NCBI GenBank assembly: GCA_016931995.1
Contig: JAFGDS010000078.1
Coordinates: 1 to 35,096, forward strand
DNA from: Pirellulales bacterium
Lineage (GTDB): Bacteria; Planctomycetota; Planctomycetia; Pirellulales; Thermoguttaceae
Length of the DNA: 35,096 nt
Direction of reading: 5' to 3'
In this document: piece after piece, positions 5,285 through 35,096 of the stretch
Numbering within the stretch: position 1 is the first letter of the stretch
Layout: each line of letters starts with the position of its first letter
Translations under genes and position numbers: made by a program
Notes under the pieces: generated by a model
The model's database searches: none
What the model was told of the DNA's origin: nothing
Seen by the model: only the letters and a program-made list of their open reading frames with translations

Positions 5285-5357
5285 GTCTATCCTGAGCGCA
5301 GCGAAGGATCTCGTTGGCGCGAGACGATTTGAGATGCTTCGCTTCGCTCAGCATGAC
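5285..5357. repeat. 72-bp palindromic repeat, copy 1
   Basis: This is one of four copies (others at 13821-13892, 22606-22677 and 34894-34965). The ends form an imperfect palindrome: one arm contains CCTGAGCGCAGCGAAGGATC and the other GATGCTTCGCTTCGCTCAGC. This copy carries one extra base (73 bp). It is flanked further out by an inverted pair related to TCCCAGAACCC (about 5263-5274 and 5368-5377), hinting that the full element is longer. It fills the 334-bp gap 5158-5491, which also holds a GATGAACGCGGAT-type repeat (about 5209-5230) and a GCGAAGCCGCAAGCGG copy (5424-5442). No gene is seen in the gap. Confidence 0.85.
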
Positions 5358-5491
5358 GGCGCTGGACGGGTTCTGGGATGTTCGTTCGCACTTCGTCCGG
5401 AACGTTCCTGCCGGCTTCCTTCGTTGCGAAGCCGCAAGCGGCCCCGTCCCCCTATCCGCGGTTCCTTCCGTCTTCTTCGAAAACACGCTCA

Positions 5492-8894: not shown

Positions 8895-9173
8895 ATGTTT
8901 GCCGTTGTTCTGGGCCTCACGATGGCCCTGTTCCCCGTGGTCGGCGACGCGCCGAAGGCGTGTTGCGACTGTTGCGGACCGGTGTGCGAATGCTCGCCGT
9001 GCACGTGCGCGGCGGCCGAGGCCACGTGTTGCGAAAGCGGCGCGGCCACTGCGGCATGTTGCTGTGGCCCTGCGTGCGGCTGCGAGTCGTGCGCGTGCGA
9101 CGAAGGCTGCGCGTGCTGCGCCGGCGGTCCTTGCACCTGCCAGCGCGGCTGCCAATGCGCGTGCTGCCGCTGA
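8895..9173 (+). CDS. exported metallothionein-like cysteine-rich protein
   Basis: This 92-residue protein has 26 cysteines (28 percent) after a short hydrophobic leader (FAVVLGLTMALFPVVGDAP). The cysteines come as CC, CxC and CCC groups (ACCDCCGPVCECSPCTC, then ACCCGPACGCESCAC, then GCACCAGGPCTC, then GCQCACC). This pattern is like metallothioneins, but no known bacterial family (SmtA type) is matched and the leader suggests export. No His clusters are present. The start is supported by GAGGAGAT at 8882-8889, 5 nt before the ATG. An 11-bp hairpin lies 13 nt after the stop. Metal binding is inferred from composition only. Confidence 0.75.
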   Translation: MFAVVLGLTMALFPVVGDAPKACCDCCGPVCECSPCTCAAAEATCCESGAATAACCCGPACGCESCACDEGCACCAGGPCTCQRGCQCACCR

Positions 9174-12804: not shown

Positions 12805-13728
12805 TCACCGCACCGCCAGCGGCTCGTCGTTGACCGGCTCGTCCTTGGCCGGCTCCGGCTTGGCCGCGGGGCGATCGAAGACGCTCGCCACGCCCACCGC
12901 GTCGCACCGCGTGCAATCGAGACACCGGATGCAGCGCAGGTCGCTGGCCCGATCGCGCGGAGAGCCGCCGTACCGGCACAGCGACCGGCACGCCCCGCAC
13001 TCGTTGCAGTCGTCCTTGCGAACGCGGACGTAGAAGAATGAAACGGCGTTCGACAGACTGTACATCGCCCCCAACGGGCAGAGCACCGCGCACCACGGAC
13101 GCCACGTGAAGAGCATGGCCATCAGAAGCACGCCGAGGATCGAAAGCTTCACGGTCGAGGGCCAGGCGATCGGCCCGCCGGCCATCGCCTGCTGGGCCAC
13201 CATCGGCACCGCCCCCTCGATCGCGCCGGCCGGACACAAGCTGCAAAAGAACCACGGGCTGCCCTCGCCCAACCAGTACGGCACGACGAGCACGAGACCC
13301 ACCAGCACCACGTACCGAAAATAACCCGTCCAGCCGGGCAGGGTGAACTTCGGCGTCGGGATCCGGCCGATCAGGTCTTGCAGAAACCCGAACGGGCAAA
13401 TCCACCCGCAGATGAACGCCCCCAAAAGCGCCCCCGTCGCCGCCAACACGCCCAACGCCACGAAGGGGTACATGTGCAGCGCGCCGAAATGCGCCAACAC
13501 GCCAATCGGGCAGGCAAACAAGGCGTACGGACACGAGTGGCAGTGGAACACGGGCGAGCATATCCCGTGCATCCGCAGCATCAACGGATCCAGCCAGATC
13601 GCGAGAAACGCCACCTGAACCCAAATCCGTTTCGCCGCCAGACGCGGCGCCCACGACAGCGATTTCTTGCGGATGGCGGACAACGGCGGGAAGACCTCTT
13701 CTCGGGAAGCCGCTCGCGGCTTCGCCAC
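12805..13728 (-). CDS. NapH/CcoG-like polyferredoxin membrane protein
   Basis: This 307-residue electron-transfer membrane protein has four to five hydrophobic segments and cysteine clusters on both sides. CSPVFHCHSCPYALFACPIG (about 58-77) and CGWICPFGFLQDLIG (about 109-123) are typical of the NapH/NosR/RdxA family, with CSLCPAGAIEG and CAVLCPLGAMYSL further on. Two C-terminal ferredoxin-type [4Fe-4S] motifs follow: CNECGACRSLC, then CIRCLDCTRC. The family moves electrons between the quinone pool and periplasmic or cytoplasmic partners; the partner is unknown here. The start is uncertain: GTG at 13728 begins inside a GAAGCCGC-type repeat, so the first 12 residues (MAKPRAASREEV) may be repeat-derived or not translated; a TTG at 13683 is an alternative. 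Confidence 0.88.
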   Translation of the reverse strand: MAKPRAASREEVFPPLSAIRKKSLSWAPRLAAKRIWVQVAFLAIWLDPLMLRMHGICSPVFHCHSCPYALFACPIGVLAHFGALHMYPFVALGVLAATGALLGAFICGWICPFGFLQDLIGRIPTPKFTLPGWTGYFRYVVLVGLVLVVPYWLGEGSPWFFCSLCPAGAIEGAVPMVAQQAMAGGPIAWPSTVKLSILGVLLMAMLFTWRPWCAVLCPLGAMYSLSNAVSFFYVRVRKDDCNECGACRSLCRYGGSPRDRASDLRCIRCLDCTRCDAVGVASVFDRPAAKPEPAKDEPVNDEPLAVR

Positions 13729-13820
13729 GCATAAAAACCGACGCGAACTCTCTCGAAAACCTACAAACGTGTGAAGCCGGCTAGCGGAGTTGGAGCATAT
13801 CCCGGAACCCGGGCAACACC

Positions 13821-13892
13821 GTCATGCCGAGCGAAGCGAAGCATCTGGACTCCTTCAACGCCAACGAGATCCTTCGCTGCGCTCAGGATGAC
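13821..13892. repeat. 72-bp palindromic repeat, copy 2
   Basis: This copy starts GTCATGCCGAGCGAAGCGAA and ends CTTCGCTGCGCTCAGGATGAC, in the opposite orientation to copies 1 and 4. A TCCCGGAACCC flank lies just upstream (about 13800). It occupies the 264-bp spacer 13729-13992, where I see no gene. Confidence 0.88.
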
Positions 13893-13992
13893 GCGCGATT
13901 GGGATGGAATTTTCGACAGCCTCTCAGTGTGATGTCAACGAGCGGAGTGGTTCTCTGGCCATGGCCACCATGGCCCGGGGGGGCTAGTGCGT

Positions 13993-14421
13993 TCACGTAG
14001 GGCACAATGACGGCGGCTCGCCCGTGTACGTCCGCTTGAGTTCGCCCGACTCGAGCCGGGCCAGCCCGCCGACGGTCACGTCGCGGACCAGGCGCATCTC
14101 TGGCTCCTGAATGCCGACGAGGATGATCTGCTTGATCTTGCGGAGCTCGGGCGGCAGCGCCGGCGGTCCAAACGCGCCCGGCGGGCCAAAATCCGAAGGC
14201 TCCCCGAAGCCCGGCGGCCCCCCGAACTCGTCCGCCCCCGGCGGCCCGCCCATGTCCTCCGGCGGCACGTCGGGCGGCATCTCCGGCGGCATCACGTCGA
14301 TCTCGATCTCTTGCTCCTCGAGCACCTCCCGCCGATGATACCCCACCCCATAGGCCAGCGAGGCAATCCCCACCGCCAACAGCACCACCGGCAACAACCC
14401 CCGCTGGAGAATCCGTCTCAT
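13993..14421 (-). CDS. small membrane-anchored Pro/Gly-rich protein
   Basis: This 142-residue protein has one N-terminal hydrophobic segment (residues 8-26, GLLPVVLLAVGIASLAYGV). An acidic stretch (EVLEEQEIEIDVMPPEMPPD) and a Pro/Gly-rich region (about 48-92, GGPPG and FGPPG units) follow. The C-terminal piece of about 45 residues (IKQIILVGIQEPEMRLVRDV) looks folded. Function unknown. Codon use and GC match the neighbours. It stands alone, 86 bp downstream of the tRNA-Sec gene on the same strand. Confidence 0.65.
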   Translation of the reverse strand: MRRILQRGLLPVVLLAVGIASLAYGVGYHRREVLEEQEIEIDVMPPEMPPDVPPEDMGGPPGADEFGGPPGFGEPSDFGPPGAFGPPALPPELRKIKQIILVGIQEPEMRLVRDVTVGGLARLESGELKRTYTGEPPSLCPT

Positions 14422-14506
14422 GCCTCCTCACTCCCGTTCCGGCCTCAAAAGCCCCCTCCGCACCGCGGCTCGCCTCCCGCATCCGCCCACGTCACCAACA
14501 AAAAAA

Positions 14507-14602
14507 TGGCGGAGGCGAATGGGAATTGAACCCACCCGGGATCGTTTCGGACCCCACACTGGTTTTGAAGACCAGGGGCGCCACCAGGCACCAGTCGCCT
14601 CC
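14507..14602 (-). tRNA. selC: tRNA-Sec (UCA anticodon)
   Basis: The minus strand folds as a bacterial selenocysteine tRNA of 96 nt with encoded CCA. It has an 8-bp acceptor stem (GGAGGCGA with TCGCCTCC, then G-CCA) and a 6-bp D stem (GGTGCC/GGCGCC) with a 4-nt TGGT loop. The 5-bp anticodon stem (CTGGT/ACCAG) carries the loop CTTCAAA, so the anticodon is UCA. A long variable arm and a 5-bp T stem (GTGGG/CCCAT) follow. The 8+5 acceptor/T geometry and 6-bp D stem are diagnostic and exclude serine tRNA. It lets the cell insert selenocysteine at UGA, with SelA, SelB and SelD, none of which is in this window. A possible -10 (TATACT at 14681-14676) lies about 75 nt upstream. Confidence 0.95.
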
Positions 14603-14816
14603 GCATAAGTCCTCATCGGGATGTTGGGTTGCGGAGCTTGCGTCCCGCGGGGCGGGACAAAGGCGCGATTGCCTCAGTATACCCGGACGGGAGGACCGTG
14701 GTCGAGGCTTCCGGCCGGCACGTGCCTCCCGAGAGGGGCTTTGCGGGGCGGACGTCGCGACGGCGACCGGGACCGCTCGTGGCACTGTACCGTTCCCTGG
14801 GTCCATCCACGGCGTC

Positions 14817-15312
14817 GAAGGGGTCGGGACCAATCCTGTTCGGCACGGGATTTGCGCATCGGTACGTACCCCGCGCAAGCGGTATTGCGCGATTGTTTGG
14901 GGCGCACATAATGGGCGGGCATGGCAGGCAGGAAGCGGGAGGACGTGCGCGAAGAGGACGTGACGGGCTTGAAGTATTTCGACAAGCTCGCGCCGCTTTT
15001 GGCGCGTCTGCGCGAGGTGGGCTGTCAACGCGACAAGGCCGGCAACCGCACGCTGCATTTCGACCAGTGACGAGTTGCTCGCCCACCTGGCGAAGCTCAA
15101 GGAACAGGCCGCGTGATCCACCCGACGCCCCGGCGCGCGCCGTCGCGTCGGAGGCCGATCGCCGCCGCGCGGTGGTTGCGATCAACCTGCCGCCCCGTCG
15201 CCCCCTCCACCGCCGATTCGTCCCGCACCCTCCCACCCCGCCGCATCACCCGCCCCCCAACCCCGCCCGTGCAACAATCGAGCCGAACAGGATTGGGTCA
15301 GGTCCCTTTTCG
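14817..15312. mobile_element. internally deleted insertion sequence (MITE-like)
   Basis: A perfect 15-bp inverted repeat, CCAATCCTGTTCGGC at 14830-14844 and its complement at 15282-15296, is extended outward by imperfect similarity (CGAAGGGGTC on the left, GGTCCCTTTTCG on the right). Between the ends lies a transposase with only its first and last parts. The element of about 500 bp has no functional transposase and could only move if an intact relative supplies it in trans. Target-site duplications were not identified. Confidence 0.65.
14921..15116 (+). pseudogene. remnant of an IS transposase
   Basis: The frame from 14921 gives 49 residues (REEDVTGLKYFDKLAPLLAR, then LREVGCQRDKAGNRTLHFDQ) like the N-terminus of IS4-type transposases common in planctomycetes. 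It stops at TGA 15068-15070. In the next frame, from 15063, TSDELLAHLAKLKEQAA runs to a stop at 15114-15116 and looks like a transposase C-terminus. The catalytic DDE core, roughly 1 kb, is missing. The family assignment is from memory of similar sequences. Confidence 0.6.
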
Positions 15313-15333
15313 CTCTGCTCCATCCTACATTTT

Positions 15334-15362
15334 GCGGCTCGGCGGGAGTCTCGCCCTCCCGG
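15334..15362. repeat. GGCTCGGCGGGAG repeat, short copy
   Basis: This 29-bp sequence is identical at 28 of 29 positions to 16700-16728, which is one arm of an 80-bp palindrome. It lies just downstream of the fliA-like gene's stop and beside the deleted insertion sequence. Confidence 0.75.
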
Positions 15363-15393
15363 CAGCGGCCCACGCGGCGGCTTCGTCGGCCGG

Positions 15394-16185
15394 CTAAAGA
15401 GACGCGAACTCGGGCCGGCGGTCGGCCAGTTGGGCACGGAGGCGCTCGACGAGGCTGCTGTGCATCTGGCTGACGCGGCTCTCGCTCAGGTCGAGCGTGG
15501 CGCCGACTTCCTTCATGGTCAGCTCTTCGTAGTAGTAGAGGATGAGGATGAGCCGTTCCTTGCGGTTAAGGCCTTTGGTGACCAGACGCATCAGGTCGGT
15601 CCGCTGCACGCGGCGAGTCGGATCCTCGCCCTTGCGGTCCTCGAGAATGTCGATCTCGCTGACTTCCTTGGCGCTATCCGTTTCGTTCCACTTCTTGTTA
15701 AGGCTGATGAGGTTGACCGCCCGGGCGTCGAGCATCATCTTCTCGACCTCGAAGACGCTCATGCTCAGATGCTGAGCCAACTCCTTCTCGGTGGCGCGGC
15801 GGCCCAGCTCGTCCTCGAGCGTCTTCGAGGCTTCGTTGAGCTTCCTGGCCCGGGAGCGAACCAGCCGGGGCACCCAATCGGTATTGCGAAGCTCGTCGAG
15901 CATGGCGCCGCGGATGCGGGGTACGCAATAGGTCTCGAACTTCACGCCCCGCGCGAGATCAAAGGCGTCGATGGCGTCCATCAGGCCGAACACGCCCGCC
16001 GAAACGAGATCGTCCAGCTCGACGCCCTGCGGCAGCCGCGACCAGACGCGCTCGCCGTGGTAGCGGACCAAGGGCATGTAGGCTTCGACGAGAAGGTTGC
16101 GCAGGTGTGGATCAGGTTCGTCCGACTTCTTGTAGGTTTCCCAGAGCTTGGCGAGATCCTCGGCGGACGCCATCGCGTTGACCAT
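15394..16185 (-). CDS. FliA/WhiG-family alternative sigma factor
   Basis: This 263-residue sigma-70 factor has regions 2, 3 and 4. Region 2 spans about 20-110, with LVRYHGERVW, DDLVSAGVFGLMDAIDAFD, and GVKFETYCVPRIRGAMLDELR. The following WVPRLVRSRARKL is the sigma-28 hallmark. Region 3 covers LGRRATEKELAQHLSMSVFEVEKM. Region 4 has LNRKERLILILYYYEELTMKEVG and a recognition helix in LSESRVSQMHSSLVERL. Sigma-28 factors drive flagellar or developmental genes; no flagellar gene is nearby, so the regulon is open. The start at 16185 is set by AAGGAGG just upstream; the frame is open to 16233. Confidence 0.93.
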   Translation of the reverse strand: MVNAMASAEDLAKLWETYKKSDEPDPHLRNLLVEAYMPLVRYHGERVWSRLPQGVELDDLVSAGVFGLMDAIDAFDLARGVKFETYCVPRIRGAMLDELRNTDWVPRLVRSRARKLNEASKTLEDELGRRATEKELAQHLSMSVFEVEKMMLDARAVNLISLNKKWNETDSAKEVSEIDILEDRKGEDPTRRVQRTDLMRLVTKGLNRKERLILILYYYEELTMKEVGATLDLSESRVSQMHSSLVERLRAQLADRRPEFASL

Positions 16186-22401: not shown

Positions 22402-22605
22402 GCCCCCGATTGTTGCCGCGCCGGGCGGCCCTGGCAAGCGTCGGCCCCACCCCAACGGCGAATTGCGTCTCGACCGGTCCGCTACTAGGATGGCGGGTAT
22501 GGAGCCGTCCGGGGGCCGGTTGACTCCAAGATGGCGTCCCGCGCGGCGAATAGAGGCGGGGGAGGATTCTGGATCTCTGGGCAATCCCAGAACCCGACCA
22601 CCCTC

Positions 22606-22677
22606 GTCATGCCGAGCGAAGCGAAGCATCTCCATTCCTATCAGATCAACGAGATCCTTCGCTGCGCTCAGGATGAC
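22606..22677. repeat. 72-bp palindromic repeat, copy 3
   Basis: This copy starts GTCATGCCGAGCGAAGCGAA and ends CTTCGCTGCGCTCAGGATGAC, in the same orientation as copy 2. A TCCCAGAACCC flank precedes it (about 22586-22596). It sits in the 342-bp divergent spacer between comEC and the NfeD-like gene, where both frames remain open across it. It would be read as PSEAKHLHSYQINEILRCAQ if translation began upstream of the assigned NfeD start. No other gene is seen in this gap. Confidence 0.9.
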
Positions 22678-22743
22678 GTGGCGGAGCAGAGCGGGCATGG
22701 AACTACGCTCCAAACCTTTGGCAATCTCGGAGAGATCCTGGCC

Positions 22744-31369: not shown

Positions 31370-31690
31370 CTACCACGGCGGCGCCTCGAAGGCATAGGCC
31401 AGAACGCCGGCCACGAGAAGCACGGGCACGGCCGTGCCGACGCCGTAGACGAGCGGCAGAACGACCGTCGCGCCCGGAAGGATCGCCTGGGGCAGGATGA
31501 GTCCCATCTTCGCCAGGAAGATCGGTCCCAGGGCTGGCGTGGCCATGACGCCAAAACCGACGATCGCGTTGATGTCGGTGATCTTCTCCACGGTGGCCTT
31601 GACGCCGGCTTGGGTCACGGCCTCCTCGGCATTGTGCTTGAGCTTTTCGCACTTGGGGCAACCCGGTCCCAACACCTGAATCAGTTTCAT
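31370..31690 (-). CDS. thioredoxin-like/CcdA-like chimera
   Basis: This 106-residue frame begins as a normal small redox protein: MKLIQVLGPGCPKCEKL with the CPKC active site (residues 11-14), then DINAIVGFGVMATPAL to residue 54. In the intact family, about 25 more residues of the thioredoxin fold follow. Here the sequence switches to a hydrophobic membrane-type tail, GPIFLAKMGLILPQAI, then VVLPLVYGVGTAVPVLLVAG. That tail resembles the C-terminal part of CcdA/ArsG-type membrane proteins. The simplest reading is an in-frame deletion that fused two neighbouring genes. A good ribosome site (GGAGAAAGAGAC) precedes the ATG at 31690. The product may be made but is unlikely to be functional. Confidence 0.65.
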   Translation of the reverse strand: MKLIQVLGPGCPKCEKLKHNAEEAVTQAGVKATVEKITDINAIVGFGVMATPALGPIFLAKMGLILPQAILPGATVVLPLVYGVGTAVPVLLVAGVLAYAFEAPPW

Positions 31691-31730
31691 GTCTCTTTCT
31701 CCGGAAGTCAATGGCGTCTCTCGCGTCATC

Positions 31731-32420
31731 CTAGGGATACATCCATCCAAAAGCCATCCCCACCGCGGCGCTCATCAGCACCGTCAACAGGCAGAACGTG
31801 AACGTCTTCTTGAACCCGATGACGCTGTAGATGACCGCGATGCTCGGCAGCGACAGGGCGGGACCCGCCAGCAGCAGGGCCAGCGCCGGTCCCCGGGCCA
31901 TGCCCAACCCCCGCAGGGCCTCGATGATCGGAATCTCCGTGAGCGTGGCGAAGTATCACATCGCCCCGATCAACGACGCCACGAGGTTCGACAGAAAACT
32001 ATTATCGCCGACGAGTCTGGCCACGTACTCCTCGGGTATCAACGCCCCGCGAAGTACCAGCGATGATGGAACACCCAGGCGACCCACCCGTAGCCCTCGG
32101 GCGTGAAGTCCTCCTCCGAGGCGATATCGACCCGGTCGAGCATGAGCTTCGCGCCCTTCTTGATGTCGCCCAGCGGCTCCTCGATCTGCACTCGATAAAC
32201 CTCGGCGGCGCGAATCAGCACGGCCACCCGCATCGTCGTGCCGTCGGTCTTCGTGATCGTGGTCTGGCTGGGGTTGGTCCAGTCGCTGAACGCGAGAAAC
32301 GCGATCGCGCCCGCGATGAACATGGCCGGCACGACGCAGGCCAGGGTGTGGAACCGGACGTACCACTGGAGCATGTGGAACGCTTCGACGATGGCGTTCC
32401 GACAACCGCGGGTTTCCTCC
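31731..32420 (-). pseudogene. decayed COG0701-type permease
   Basis: Three permease-like segments lie in order on the minus strand. From about 32415 to 32040 one frame reads NAIVEAFHMLQWYVRFHTL to EGYGWVAWVFHHRWYFAGR. In another frame from about 32050, GALIPEEYVARLVGDNSFLS continues to SLIGAM and meets TGA at 31958-31956. The same frame continues as YFATLTEIPIIEALRGLG, then GPALALLLAGPALSLP, to TAG at 31733-31731. Compared with the family, the N-terminal membrane helices and roughly 60 residues between FAGR and GALIP are missing, and a frameshift marks that deletion. With these lesions the gene is almost surely dead. The UGA could be Sec only if the gene still functions. Confidence 0.7.
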
Positions 32421-33216: not shown

Positions 33217-35096
33217 TCACCGCCATCGTCGCCGCGTCAACGCGAAGCCGACCAGGCCCAGCCAACCCAGCCCGCTGAGGGTGGCGCCACACGCGAGGGC
33301 CGTCGAGAGCCGAGCCCGAAGCACCGAGTTGTTCGGCAGCGCCGCGGCGGCGCGTGGGTCGTGCGTGGCGTCGCGATACCAGAGCGAGACGTCCTTCGCC
33401 TCCTCGCTCACGGGCCGGCCGCCGGGCAGGGTTTCGCCGGGTGGAAGAATGGCGTACTCGGCCCCGGTGGCGGCCATGATCTCGTCGGGCGAGTGCTCGG
33501 CCAGAAACCGCCGGTACGCGGCCGGCATCATCGAGCCGTAGACCTCGACGCCGCCGATCCGCTCGGGCAGGTTGTACTTCGGACGCAGCGTGTCGCGGTC
33601 CCACGCGACGCTCTCGGCCAGCCGATCGGGCGAACCGGCGGCCTTCCACGACGTTGGGAGCCAAGTGGGATGTCGCCAAACCCGCACGGGGCCGGTCTCG
33701 CCCCGGCGGGCCCGGTCGGCGCGGATCGCCTGGACCAACCGCGACGGCGCGCGCCACAGTTCGGCTGGCGCGGCGACCACCATCCAGCCGTTGGCCACTG
33801 CCAGATCGACGCACACCAGCGCCAACATCGCCGCCGGAATCCAACGCCGCCGGTTTGCGGGAGCACCGGGCGCCACTGCTGGCTCGTCCAGCAGTGCCGG
33901 AGCACAACCGCTCGCCCACCGCAGTGACAAGAGCCACCATGCCAGCCCGCAGACGACCGCCGTTTGCAGCAGACCGAACGACAGATCGGCGGCCGCGCCG
34001 GACGCGTCGAGGGGGCCAAACAGGACGTCGGGCTCGGCCGCGGCGAACCAGCCGGGCCACCACGGCCGCGTCGCGAACGCCGCCGCCGCGCCGACCAGAC
34101 TGATCCCGCCCAGCGCGGCGAAGGCGCGCCTCGGCCGCGGCGAGTCATGCCGAAACGCCGCGTCCCAACCACGGGCGGCCAGCACGCCCAAGGCCAGCGC
34201 GGCCACGACCAGCAGCTTGGCCGGGTAGCGAAAATAGACGTAGCCGGGCAGGAGCACCGTCATGAGCCAGTAGAGTCCTCCGACCGGATAGCCCAACGTG
34301 CCGCCGTCCGCGGTTATTCCACAAGCCGCCCGGCACTCCGCCGCGAGCCAGCCGAGGCCGTACCATCCCAGCGCCGCGAGCACGGCCAGCACGGCCGTCC
34401 AGCTCATCCACGCGACCGCCGGCCGGCCGCGCCGCGGCCGCAGCGCCGACAGGGCTAGCAGCAACGGAACCACGCCCATGTAGAGCGACGGCGTCCACAC
34501 GCGGCCCTCGGCCGGCACGGCGGCGATCCACCGACGATGGATCGGGAATTGCCGGCCCGAGAAGTTGGGCCAGACGTATTCGGCCCAGCGCCACGGGCCG
34601 ACGCTGAAGTGATACGCGTGCCGCGCGTGCGACTCGCCGTCGAGCCGCCGGCACAACAGGCCATCGGCGATGCGTTTCGCCGGGTCGTCCAAATGGAACG
34701 CCGAGGGGATTTCCCAAACGCTCCGCGGCGCGGTCGCGTCCGCCCGGTTGGATAGACGCGCGAACACGGCGGAGGGAAAGACCTGGATCGCCGAGAGGAC
34801 CAGGGCCGTCGCGGCGGCAAGGGCGAGGAGGAGTGGGGCGGGGTGTCGGGGACGATGAAACAAACAACGACGGTTATCATGGGCCAAGCCACCGTCATCC
34901 TGAGCGCGGCGAAGGATCTCGTCGGGATTTGGGTTCGCCAGATGCTTCGCTTCGCTCGGCATGACGGGCTTGCTATCGGGAGAAAGGGGGATAGTCCCAT
35001 TTTCGCTGTGCGAAAATCGGGACAGTCCCCGGCGCGTGAATCGGGACAGTCGCCGGCGGCATTGCCAGAGGATCAGGGCGTCCAGGGCGGCCAGGA
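33217..35096 (-). CDS. YfhO-like large membrane protein, 5' part beyond the window
   Basis: The reading frame runs without a stop from the window edge to 33217 (about 625 residues visible), so the N-terminus is missing. Ten or so hydrophobic segments alternate with soluble parts. VLLPGYVYFRYPAKLLVVAA is typical of YfhO-type proteins, as are HFSVGPWRWAEYVWPNFSGR and the C-terminal soluble region with SVAWDRDTLRPKYNLPERIG. Such proteins are thought to act in envelope glycan or lipid modification, but this one is untested. Two palindromic repeats (34987-35030 and 34894-34965) lie in the frame and are translated. A start at 34962 inside the repeat is possible but unlikely, because hydrophobic coding sequence (LAALDALILW) continues upstream. 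Confidence 0.7.
   Translation of the reverse strand, partial: LAALDALILWQCRRRLSRFTRRGLSRFSHSENGTIPLSPDSKPVMPSEAKHLANPNPDEILRRAQDDGGLAHDNRRCLFHRPRHPAPLLLALAAATALVLSAIQVFPSAVFARLSNRADATAPRSVWEIPSAFHLDDPAKRIADGLLCRRLDGESHARHAYHFSVGPWRWAEYVWPNFSGRQFPIHRRWIAAVPAEGRVWTPSLYMGVVPLLLALSALRPRRGRPAVAWMSWTAVLAVLAALGWYGLGWLAAECRAACGITADGGTLGYPVGGLYWLMTVLLPGYVYFRYPAKLLVVAALALGVLAARGWDAAFRHDSPRPRRAFAALGGISLVGAAAAFATRPWWPGWFAAAEPDVLFGPLDASGAAADLSFGLLQTAVVCGLAWWLLSLRWASGCAPALLDEPAVAPGAPANRRRWIPAAMLALVCVDLAVANGWMVVAAPAELWRAPSRLVQAIRADRARRGETGPVRVWRHPTWLPTSWKAAGSPDRLAESVAWDRDTLRPKYNLPERIGGVEVYGSMMPAAYRRFLAEHSPDEIMAATGAEYAILPPGETLPGGRPVSEEAKDVSLWYRDATHDPRAAAALPNNSVLRARLSTALACGATLSGLGWLGLVGFALTRRRWR
34894..34965. 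repeat. 72-bp palindromic repeat, copy 4 (in frame in a gene)
   Basis: The copy is in the orientation of copy 1 on the plus strand; on the minus strand it reads GTCATGCCGAGCGAAGCGAA. It is exactly 72 bp, 24 codons, and lies in frame in the YfhO-like gene, where it encodes VMPSEAKHLANPNPDEILRR followed by AQDD. The frame continues on both sides. Confidence 0.9.
34987..35030. repeat. GGGACTGTCCC palindromic element (in frame in a gene)
   Basis: GGGGATAGTCCC and ATTTTCGC pair with GCGAAAAT and GGGACAGTCCCC across a short TGT-type loop, giving a 44-bp imperfect palindrome. A second GGGACAGTC follows at about 35042. On the minus strand it is read as LSRFSHSENGTIPL in the YfhO-like frame. A related half lies in the anti-sigma gene at 851-877. 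Confidence 0.8.

Follow-up and report, generated by a model that had tools for sequence, protein, structure and literature searches.

A selenocysteine tRNA gene lies beside a predicted selenoprotein gene of an undescribed family in uncultured Planctomycetota and Verrucomicrobiota

The analyzed sequence (hereafter the window, 35,096 nt, the whole of contig C120) contains a canonical bacterial tRNA-Sec at positions 14507-14602 on the minus strand. The short gene located 85 nt downstream of it appears to belong to an undescribed family of selenium-containing membrane proteins, encoded next to this tRNA in many uncultured Planctomycetota and Verrucomicrobiota. We refer to this gene as cptU. The product is a predicted membrane-anchored selenoprotein with a C-terminal CxTU tail. 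The selenocysteine (Sec) reading is very likely, while the redox role of the protein together with a neighboring NapH-like protein is inferred, and neither has been shown by experiment.

The first-pass annotation had described a canonical tRNA-Sec in a planctomycete-like genome in which the sel genes are dispersed, with Sec use patchy across bacteria and present only in some planctomycetes. These points were confirmed. ARAGORN called one tRNA in the window, tRNA-SeC with anticodon tca. Rfam RF01852 matched 14511-14602 with 80.4 bits (gathering score 47, E 3.2e-15), and this was the only Rfam match at gathering score in the window. The sequence shows the 8-bp acceptor (GGAGGCGA/TCGCCTCC), a 6-bp D stem with a TGGT loop (one U-G pair), the CTTCAAA anticodon loop, a long variable arm, a 5-bp T stem (one G-U pair), discriminator G and an encoded CCA. 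A run of seven T at 14500-14506 (minus strand) directly follows the CCA, and T runs are also found at this position in several relatives; we infer a processing or termination signal. A weak promoter-like site, TCGACC-N18-TATACT (9 of 12), is located upstream of the tRNA at 14676-14705 (minus strand). Two such sites were found in 13700-15400 against a mean of 0.2 in shuffles, but the assignment rests on the consensus match only. The only other RF01852 hit over the cut-off in the genome (49.9 bits, contig C24) is tRNA-Ser(tga) according to ARAGORN.

The Sec machinery of the genome (5.43 Mb, 99.13% complete, 153 contigs, planctomycete as judged from the record titles of relatives) is complete but dispersed. 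SelA (531 bits, contig C133), SelB (316 bits, C58) and SelD (367 bits, C10) are each over their NCBIfam cut-offs, and no sel gene is adjacent to the tRNA. In relatives, however, selD often lies directly upstream of the tRNA, so the dispersal is a local state. SelD of this genome (958-2670 of a stretch of C10, minus strand) is a 570-aa fusion consisting of a Cys-rich N-terminus (CICDPKKPCPCD...CPCAGE), SelD (365 bits against a cut-off of 125 for TIGR00476) and a C-terminal AhpD/CMD domain. The tblastn alignments of relatives run through the AhpD end in both phyla, whereas the SelD fusions that we saw named in PMC2398784 are only Ndh-SelD and NifS-SelD. A second SelA-like PLP protein (1480-2892 of a stretch of C121), beside a phosphoglycerate mutase gene, scored 253 bits, just under the SelA cut-off of 268. 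Sec use is indeed patchy, since 45 of 146 genomes of the order have an RF01852 hit at E<=1e-9, two of them (genomes G084 and G111) at only about 54 bits. In the family the count is 20 of 119, or 18 with 65 bits or more after two 54-bit hits (G084 and G159) were dropped.

Which protein uses this tRNA was then examined. No formate dehydrogenase was found, as the only PF00384 match in the genome is a NuoG-like protein. Two CMD hits, examined as possible AhpD-type selenoproteins, contain no TGA; other selenoprotein families were not searched in this genome. In tRNA-Sec loci of the same family, however, orthologues of the NapH-like protein of the window (12805-13728, minus strand) were located downstream of the tRNA in three loci (L026, L028 and L031). 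Reading the intervening ORF with TGA marked gave the key result. The 142-codon ORF of the window (13993-14421) ends LCPT-TGA-Thr-His-TAG, and its orthologues end LCPT-TGA-Val-Lys-TGA, ACPT-TGA-Val-Lys-TAA and FCPT-TGA-Val-Lys-TAA. This gene had been missed in the first-pass annotation. As predicted here, cptU spans 13984-14421 on the minus strand and encodes 145 residues, with Sec at residue 143 (TGA 13993-13995) followed by Thr-His and the stop TAG at 13984-13986. A copy of a roughly 74-bp repeat (13820-13893) lies between cptU and the NapH-like gene, and a blastn search found copies with 85-88% identity to it at 5289-5359, 22605-22678 and 34893-34967. Elsewhere in the window, the ORF at 31370-31750 (minus strand) is chimeric, the first half matching MTH895/ArsE thioredoxin and the second half weakly matching the C-terminal part of the ArsG permease, and looks like a rearrangement or an assembly join. 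A candidate 92-aa peptide at 8895-9173 (plus strand) has a hydrophobic N-terminus and 26 cysteines, metallothionein-like in composition.

A profile of four sequences detected cptU in 5 of 146 genomes of the order. In the 119 family genomes it gave hits in 15, of which one (G155, a low-complexity hit) is spurious. The C-terminus is readable in 13 of the 14 true cases (in G212 the contig ends before it), and all 13 have C-P-[T/S]-TGA, two codons and a second stop, with TAA, TAG and TGA all used as the second stop. The tRNA-Sec gene lies directly upstream in 11 of the 14, and in G158 it lies about 2.1 kb downstream on the same contig. In total, 12 of the 14 cptU genomes have tRNA-Sec, against 6 of 105 others (Fisher 1.6e-10). 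The two exceptions, G168 and G171, are 72-73% complete and show no tRNA-Sec and only below-cut-off matches to the SelB model.

To examine the spread beyond the family, relatives were fetched through the NapH-like protein, so that retrieval did not depend on the motif. Of 115 relatives, the best 80 were kept. All 80 record titles are MAGs, and most name Planctomycetota or Verrucomicrobiota groups; four are unplaced (L114, L143, L148 and L150) and one is titled Candidatus Nealsonbacteria (L127). C-x-[T/S]-TGA, one or two codons and a stop was found in 78 of the 80 loci, 76 with two codons and 2 with one. In the other two (L107 and L132) the NapH-like match begins at the contig edge. Eleven of these loci are contigs already counted in the family set, so that cptU is conserved in 13 family genomes and 67 further loci. 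The three residues before the TGA are CPT in 59 loci, CAT in 10, CST in 4, CPS in 2, CET in 2 and CLT in 1. As controls, only 8 of 634 other TGA-ended frames of at least 150 codons in these loci (counted mechanically, spurious frames included) have the next in-frame stop after exactly two codons, and the motif with at least 25 open codons before it occurs nowhere else in 585,384 bases in six frames. It is worth noting that no Cys form was found in that frame in the 78 readable loci, so the classical Cys/Sec pairing test is missing; since only the best 80 of 115 relatives were kept, distant Cys forms may exist. Cys-type motif hits in L090 and L105 lie in another frame and are not CptU homologues.

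A SECIS-like hairpin, GGCCATGG-TGG-CCATGGCC, is located at 13957-13975 (minus strand), and its loop begins 25 nt after the UGA. An 8-bp stem with a 3-nt NGN loop follows the UGA in 13 of 13 family sequences, the window included, with 104 of 104 cells paired and two pairs changed on both sides. These sequences fit what is probably the usual geometry of a bacterial SECIS, with the loop about 16-37 nt from the UGA and a G in the first two loop positions. Over 79 sequences, 94.3% of 617 cells pair, 7 of 8 pairs have double changes, and double-change cells number 69 against 23.4 +/- 3.6 in shuffles. The count of further pair types, however, is not above shuffles (210 of 500 reach it). Slid versions reach at most 43.6% paired, and RNAalifold predicts five of these pairs on the same alignment, all with double changes. 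In some Verrucomicrobiota the stem is GGCCACA/TGTGGCC with a TGG loop instead of GGTCATGG/CCATGGCC, in the same place. A simple scan found a hairpin scoring 14 or more in 64 of 78 loci, against 13.6% of shuffles. In the other 14, about two thirds of them Verrucomicrobiota-type, it found no such stem, although the alignment shows a stem in many of these.

The Sec machinery was also examined in 50 further genomes. Of these, 42 have tRNA-Sec (one hit, in G245, is cut at a contig edge), and 5 of the other 8 have a SelB over its cut-off. The remaining three, G243, G268 and G281, have neither. G243 (L076, CP070806.1) is the clearest exception. It is a closed chromosome; its SelB match ends at residue 214 of the SelB of the window genome, no tRNA-Sec trace lies in the fetched flank, and its hairpin has one mismatch. 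A lineage losing Sec or an assembly fault could explain this case. In 52 of 53 loci with both, tRNA-Sec is upstream of the motif on the same strand, at a distance of 240-677 nt. In 25 of the 78 loci no tRNA-Sec lies in the fetched stretch, which is short in many of them but includes nearly 4 kb upstream in some. A SelD-AhpD relative lies in the same locus in 28 of 80 loci, SelB in 9 and SelA in 6.

CptU has a predicted N-terminal membrane helix at residues 2-28, a Pro-rich linker (57-87, low confidence) and the C-terminal CPTU-TH. The helix and the linker were taken from an AlphaFold model of modest quality (mean pLDDT 69.7, pTM 0.42). Searches of Pfam and NCBIfam 20.0 with 11 family members (E<=0.1) and 9 wider members (E<=0.01) gave only a few weak hits, none to a selenoprotein family. 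For the NapH-like protein, which matches Fer4_5 (PF12801, 53 bits), the AlphaFold model was not used (mean pLDDT 43.6), and hydropathy gave no clean topology. Interestingly, a deiodinase-like Sec protein (SSYT-TGA-PPF in 8 of 8) is encoded in eight loci (L075, L085, L091, L092, L093, L095, L098 and L121; for example L095:4027-5733, plus strand). It follows the NapH-like gene on the same strand in seven and lies on the other strand in L091. The two scanned with Pfam also carry a C-terminal multihaem cytochrome-like region (T4_deiodinase plus MtrC/MtrF-type domain, both over cut-off). A recurrent protein without a clear Pfam domain (YLDLNHNGDL / LYFDINGNGDL type) also lies downstream of the NapH-like gene in a number of loci (for example L072:5034-6725, L106:1207-2943 and L120:4944-6509); the similarity cluster that contains it spans 29 loci but is mixed in strand.

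These results are best explained by a functional tRNA-Sec gene (selC) that forms one conserved gene set with a new selenoprotein gene, cptU, and a NapH-like polyferredoxin gene, and we regard this explanation as very likely. In this scheme, SerRS charges the tRNA with Ser, SelA converts Ser to Sec with selenophosphate from SelD, and SelB delivers it to the UGA of cptU, which in the window and most relatives is followed, 19-25 nt on, by the loop of a SECIS hairpin, usually of 8 bp. Sec insertion itself is inferred from the sequences. Most likely, the Cys-Sec pair of the C-x-T-U-x-x tail is a redox centre on a flexible, membrane-tethered arm outside the cytoplasm, reduced through the NapH-like protein and passing electrons to extracytoplasmic partners. 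The topology and the electron flow are inferences, and the deiodinase-like Sec protein encoded next in some relatives is one candidate partner.

There are other possible interpretations of these results, all of which seem unlikely. The TGA might be an ordinary stop after ...CPT, with the downstream stop and the hairpin acting as translation-initiation or coupling signals of the NapH-like gene, or the UGA and SECIS might act mainly as a selenium or SelB sensor that gates translation of this gene, the CptU tail itself mattering little. Both receive some support from the fact that an in-frame start codon of the NapH-like gene lies inside the hairpin in 50 of 78 loci (ATG in 37 of them), including some Verrucomicrobiota (L124, L144 and L146, with an in-frame ATG). 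Part of the hairpin conservation could therefore serve that gene, and the overlap weakens this conservation as evidence on its own. For the first, TGA is also the commonest stop in these loci (638 of 1,128 other frames, counted mechanically), and for the second, a SelB-binding SECIS-like element appears to regulate selAB in E. coli. In 13 of 78 loci and in the window, however, the NapH-like frame is closed before it reaches the hairpin and cannot start there, and 11 of these 13 still score 14 or more in the hairpin scan. An ordinary stop is also hard to reconcile with a TGA in 78 of 78 readable loci and a second stop after one or two codons in all of them, with all three stop codons used and the intervening residues varying within a narrow set, and with the strong co-occurrence with tRNA-Sec. 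As for the sensor hypothesis, the protein is conserved beyond the tail in the family (membrane helix, VTVGG...RTY segment), and the C-x-T-U tail is kept across two phyla although the rest of the protein differs. Least likely of all, the tRNA might be a relic or a tRNA-Ser variant in a genome that does not use Sec, as the absence of a detected formate dehydrogenase might suggest. The intact fold, the presence of SelA, SelB and SelD and the adjacent cptU as a client speak against this.

A broader hypothesis is not excluded but remains tentative, and we consider it less likely than not. In this view, selD-ahpD, tRNA-Sec, cptU and the NapH-like gene would form a self-contained selenocysteine cassette, the core and main reason of Sec use in many Planctomycetota and Verrucomicrobiota, in which CptU carries electrons from an Fe-S protein to extracytoplasmic acceptors. 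Where the SECIS overlaps the start of the NapH-like gene, it would also couple translation of that gene to selenium supply. Apart from this hypothesis, tRNA-Sec next to one unknown gene in so many lineages points to a selenoprotein that the family libraries searched here do not hold, and whose Sec, three residues from the end, is easily read as a plain stop. It offers a client for the Sec machinery in a genome where no formate dehydrogenase was found, and CxT-TGA-xx-stop plus a hairpin beside tRNA-Sec gives a simple marker for finding Sec use in these phyla.

The tRNA itself agrees with RF01852 in score, stems, anticodon, variable arm and encoded CCA, and differs only in its neighborhood, since here and in relatives it sits directly before cptU and the NapH-like gene. 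Among the 119 selenoprotein families and subfamilies listed in PMC13188914, we saw none described as CptU-like, and literature searches, which covered only openly licensed PubMed Central papers, listed nothing that describes it (other papers consulted: PMC9312934, PMC5330540, PMC1794560 and PMC8124441; a search within PMC12013277 gave no hit). The UXX-star families (NF041114, NF041211) and, by name, SaoC (NF040734), KCU-star (NF033934) and the CC/Se motif family (NF041239) share with CptU a Sec close to the C-terminus, if "star" denotes the stop codon, as the names suggest. None of these models matched the CptU sequences searched, and CptU has a predicted membrane anchor, a CxTU motif and a NapH-like neighbor. 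The eukaryotic selenoproteins K and S, which seem to be small membrane-anchored proteins with Sec near the C-terminus, and the C-terminal GCUG tail of thioredoxin reductase, probably a flexible Cys-Sec redox arm, are similar in outline; CptU has a bacterial SECIS next to the UGA and CxTU rather than CU, and no sequence relation is claimed. Sec genes have been reported in planctomycetes P1, P2, G. obscuriglobus and I. pallida (PMC4807772), and in P1 and P2, as here, sel genes and selenoprotein genes are not always co-localised. FdhA and FmdB are named there as selenoproteins; the window genome has no FdhA by PF00384, and a CptU-type protein is not named in the text consulted, which did not include the tables of candidates. 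Finally, the neighboring protein resembles the NapH/MauN ferredoxin-type proteins (TIGR02163) in being a Cys-rich polyferredoxin membrane protein with Fer4_5 domains, but it scores 47.2 bits against a cut-off of 213 and carries an additional conserved Cys cluster, C-x5-C-x2-C-x6-C (PVFHC..C...FACPIG, residues 57-73), outside the stretch that the NapH model matches (residues 100-278).
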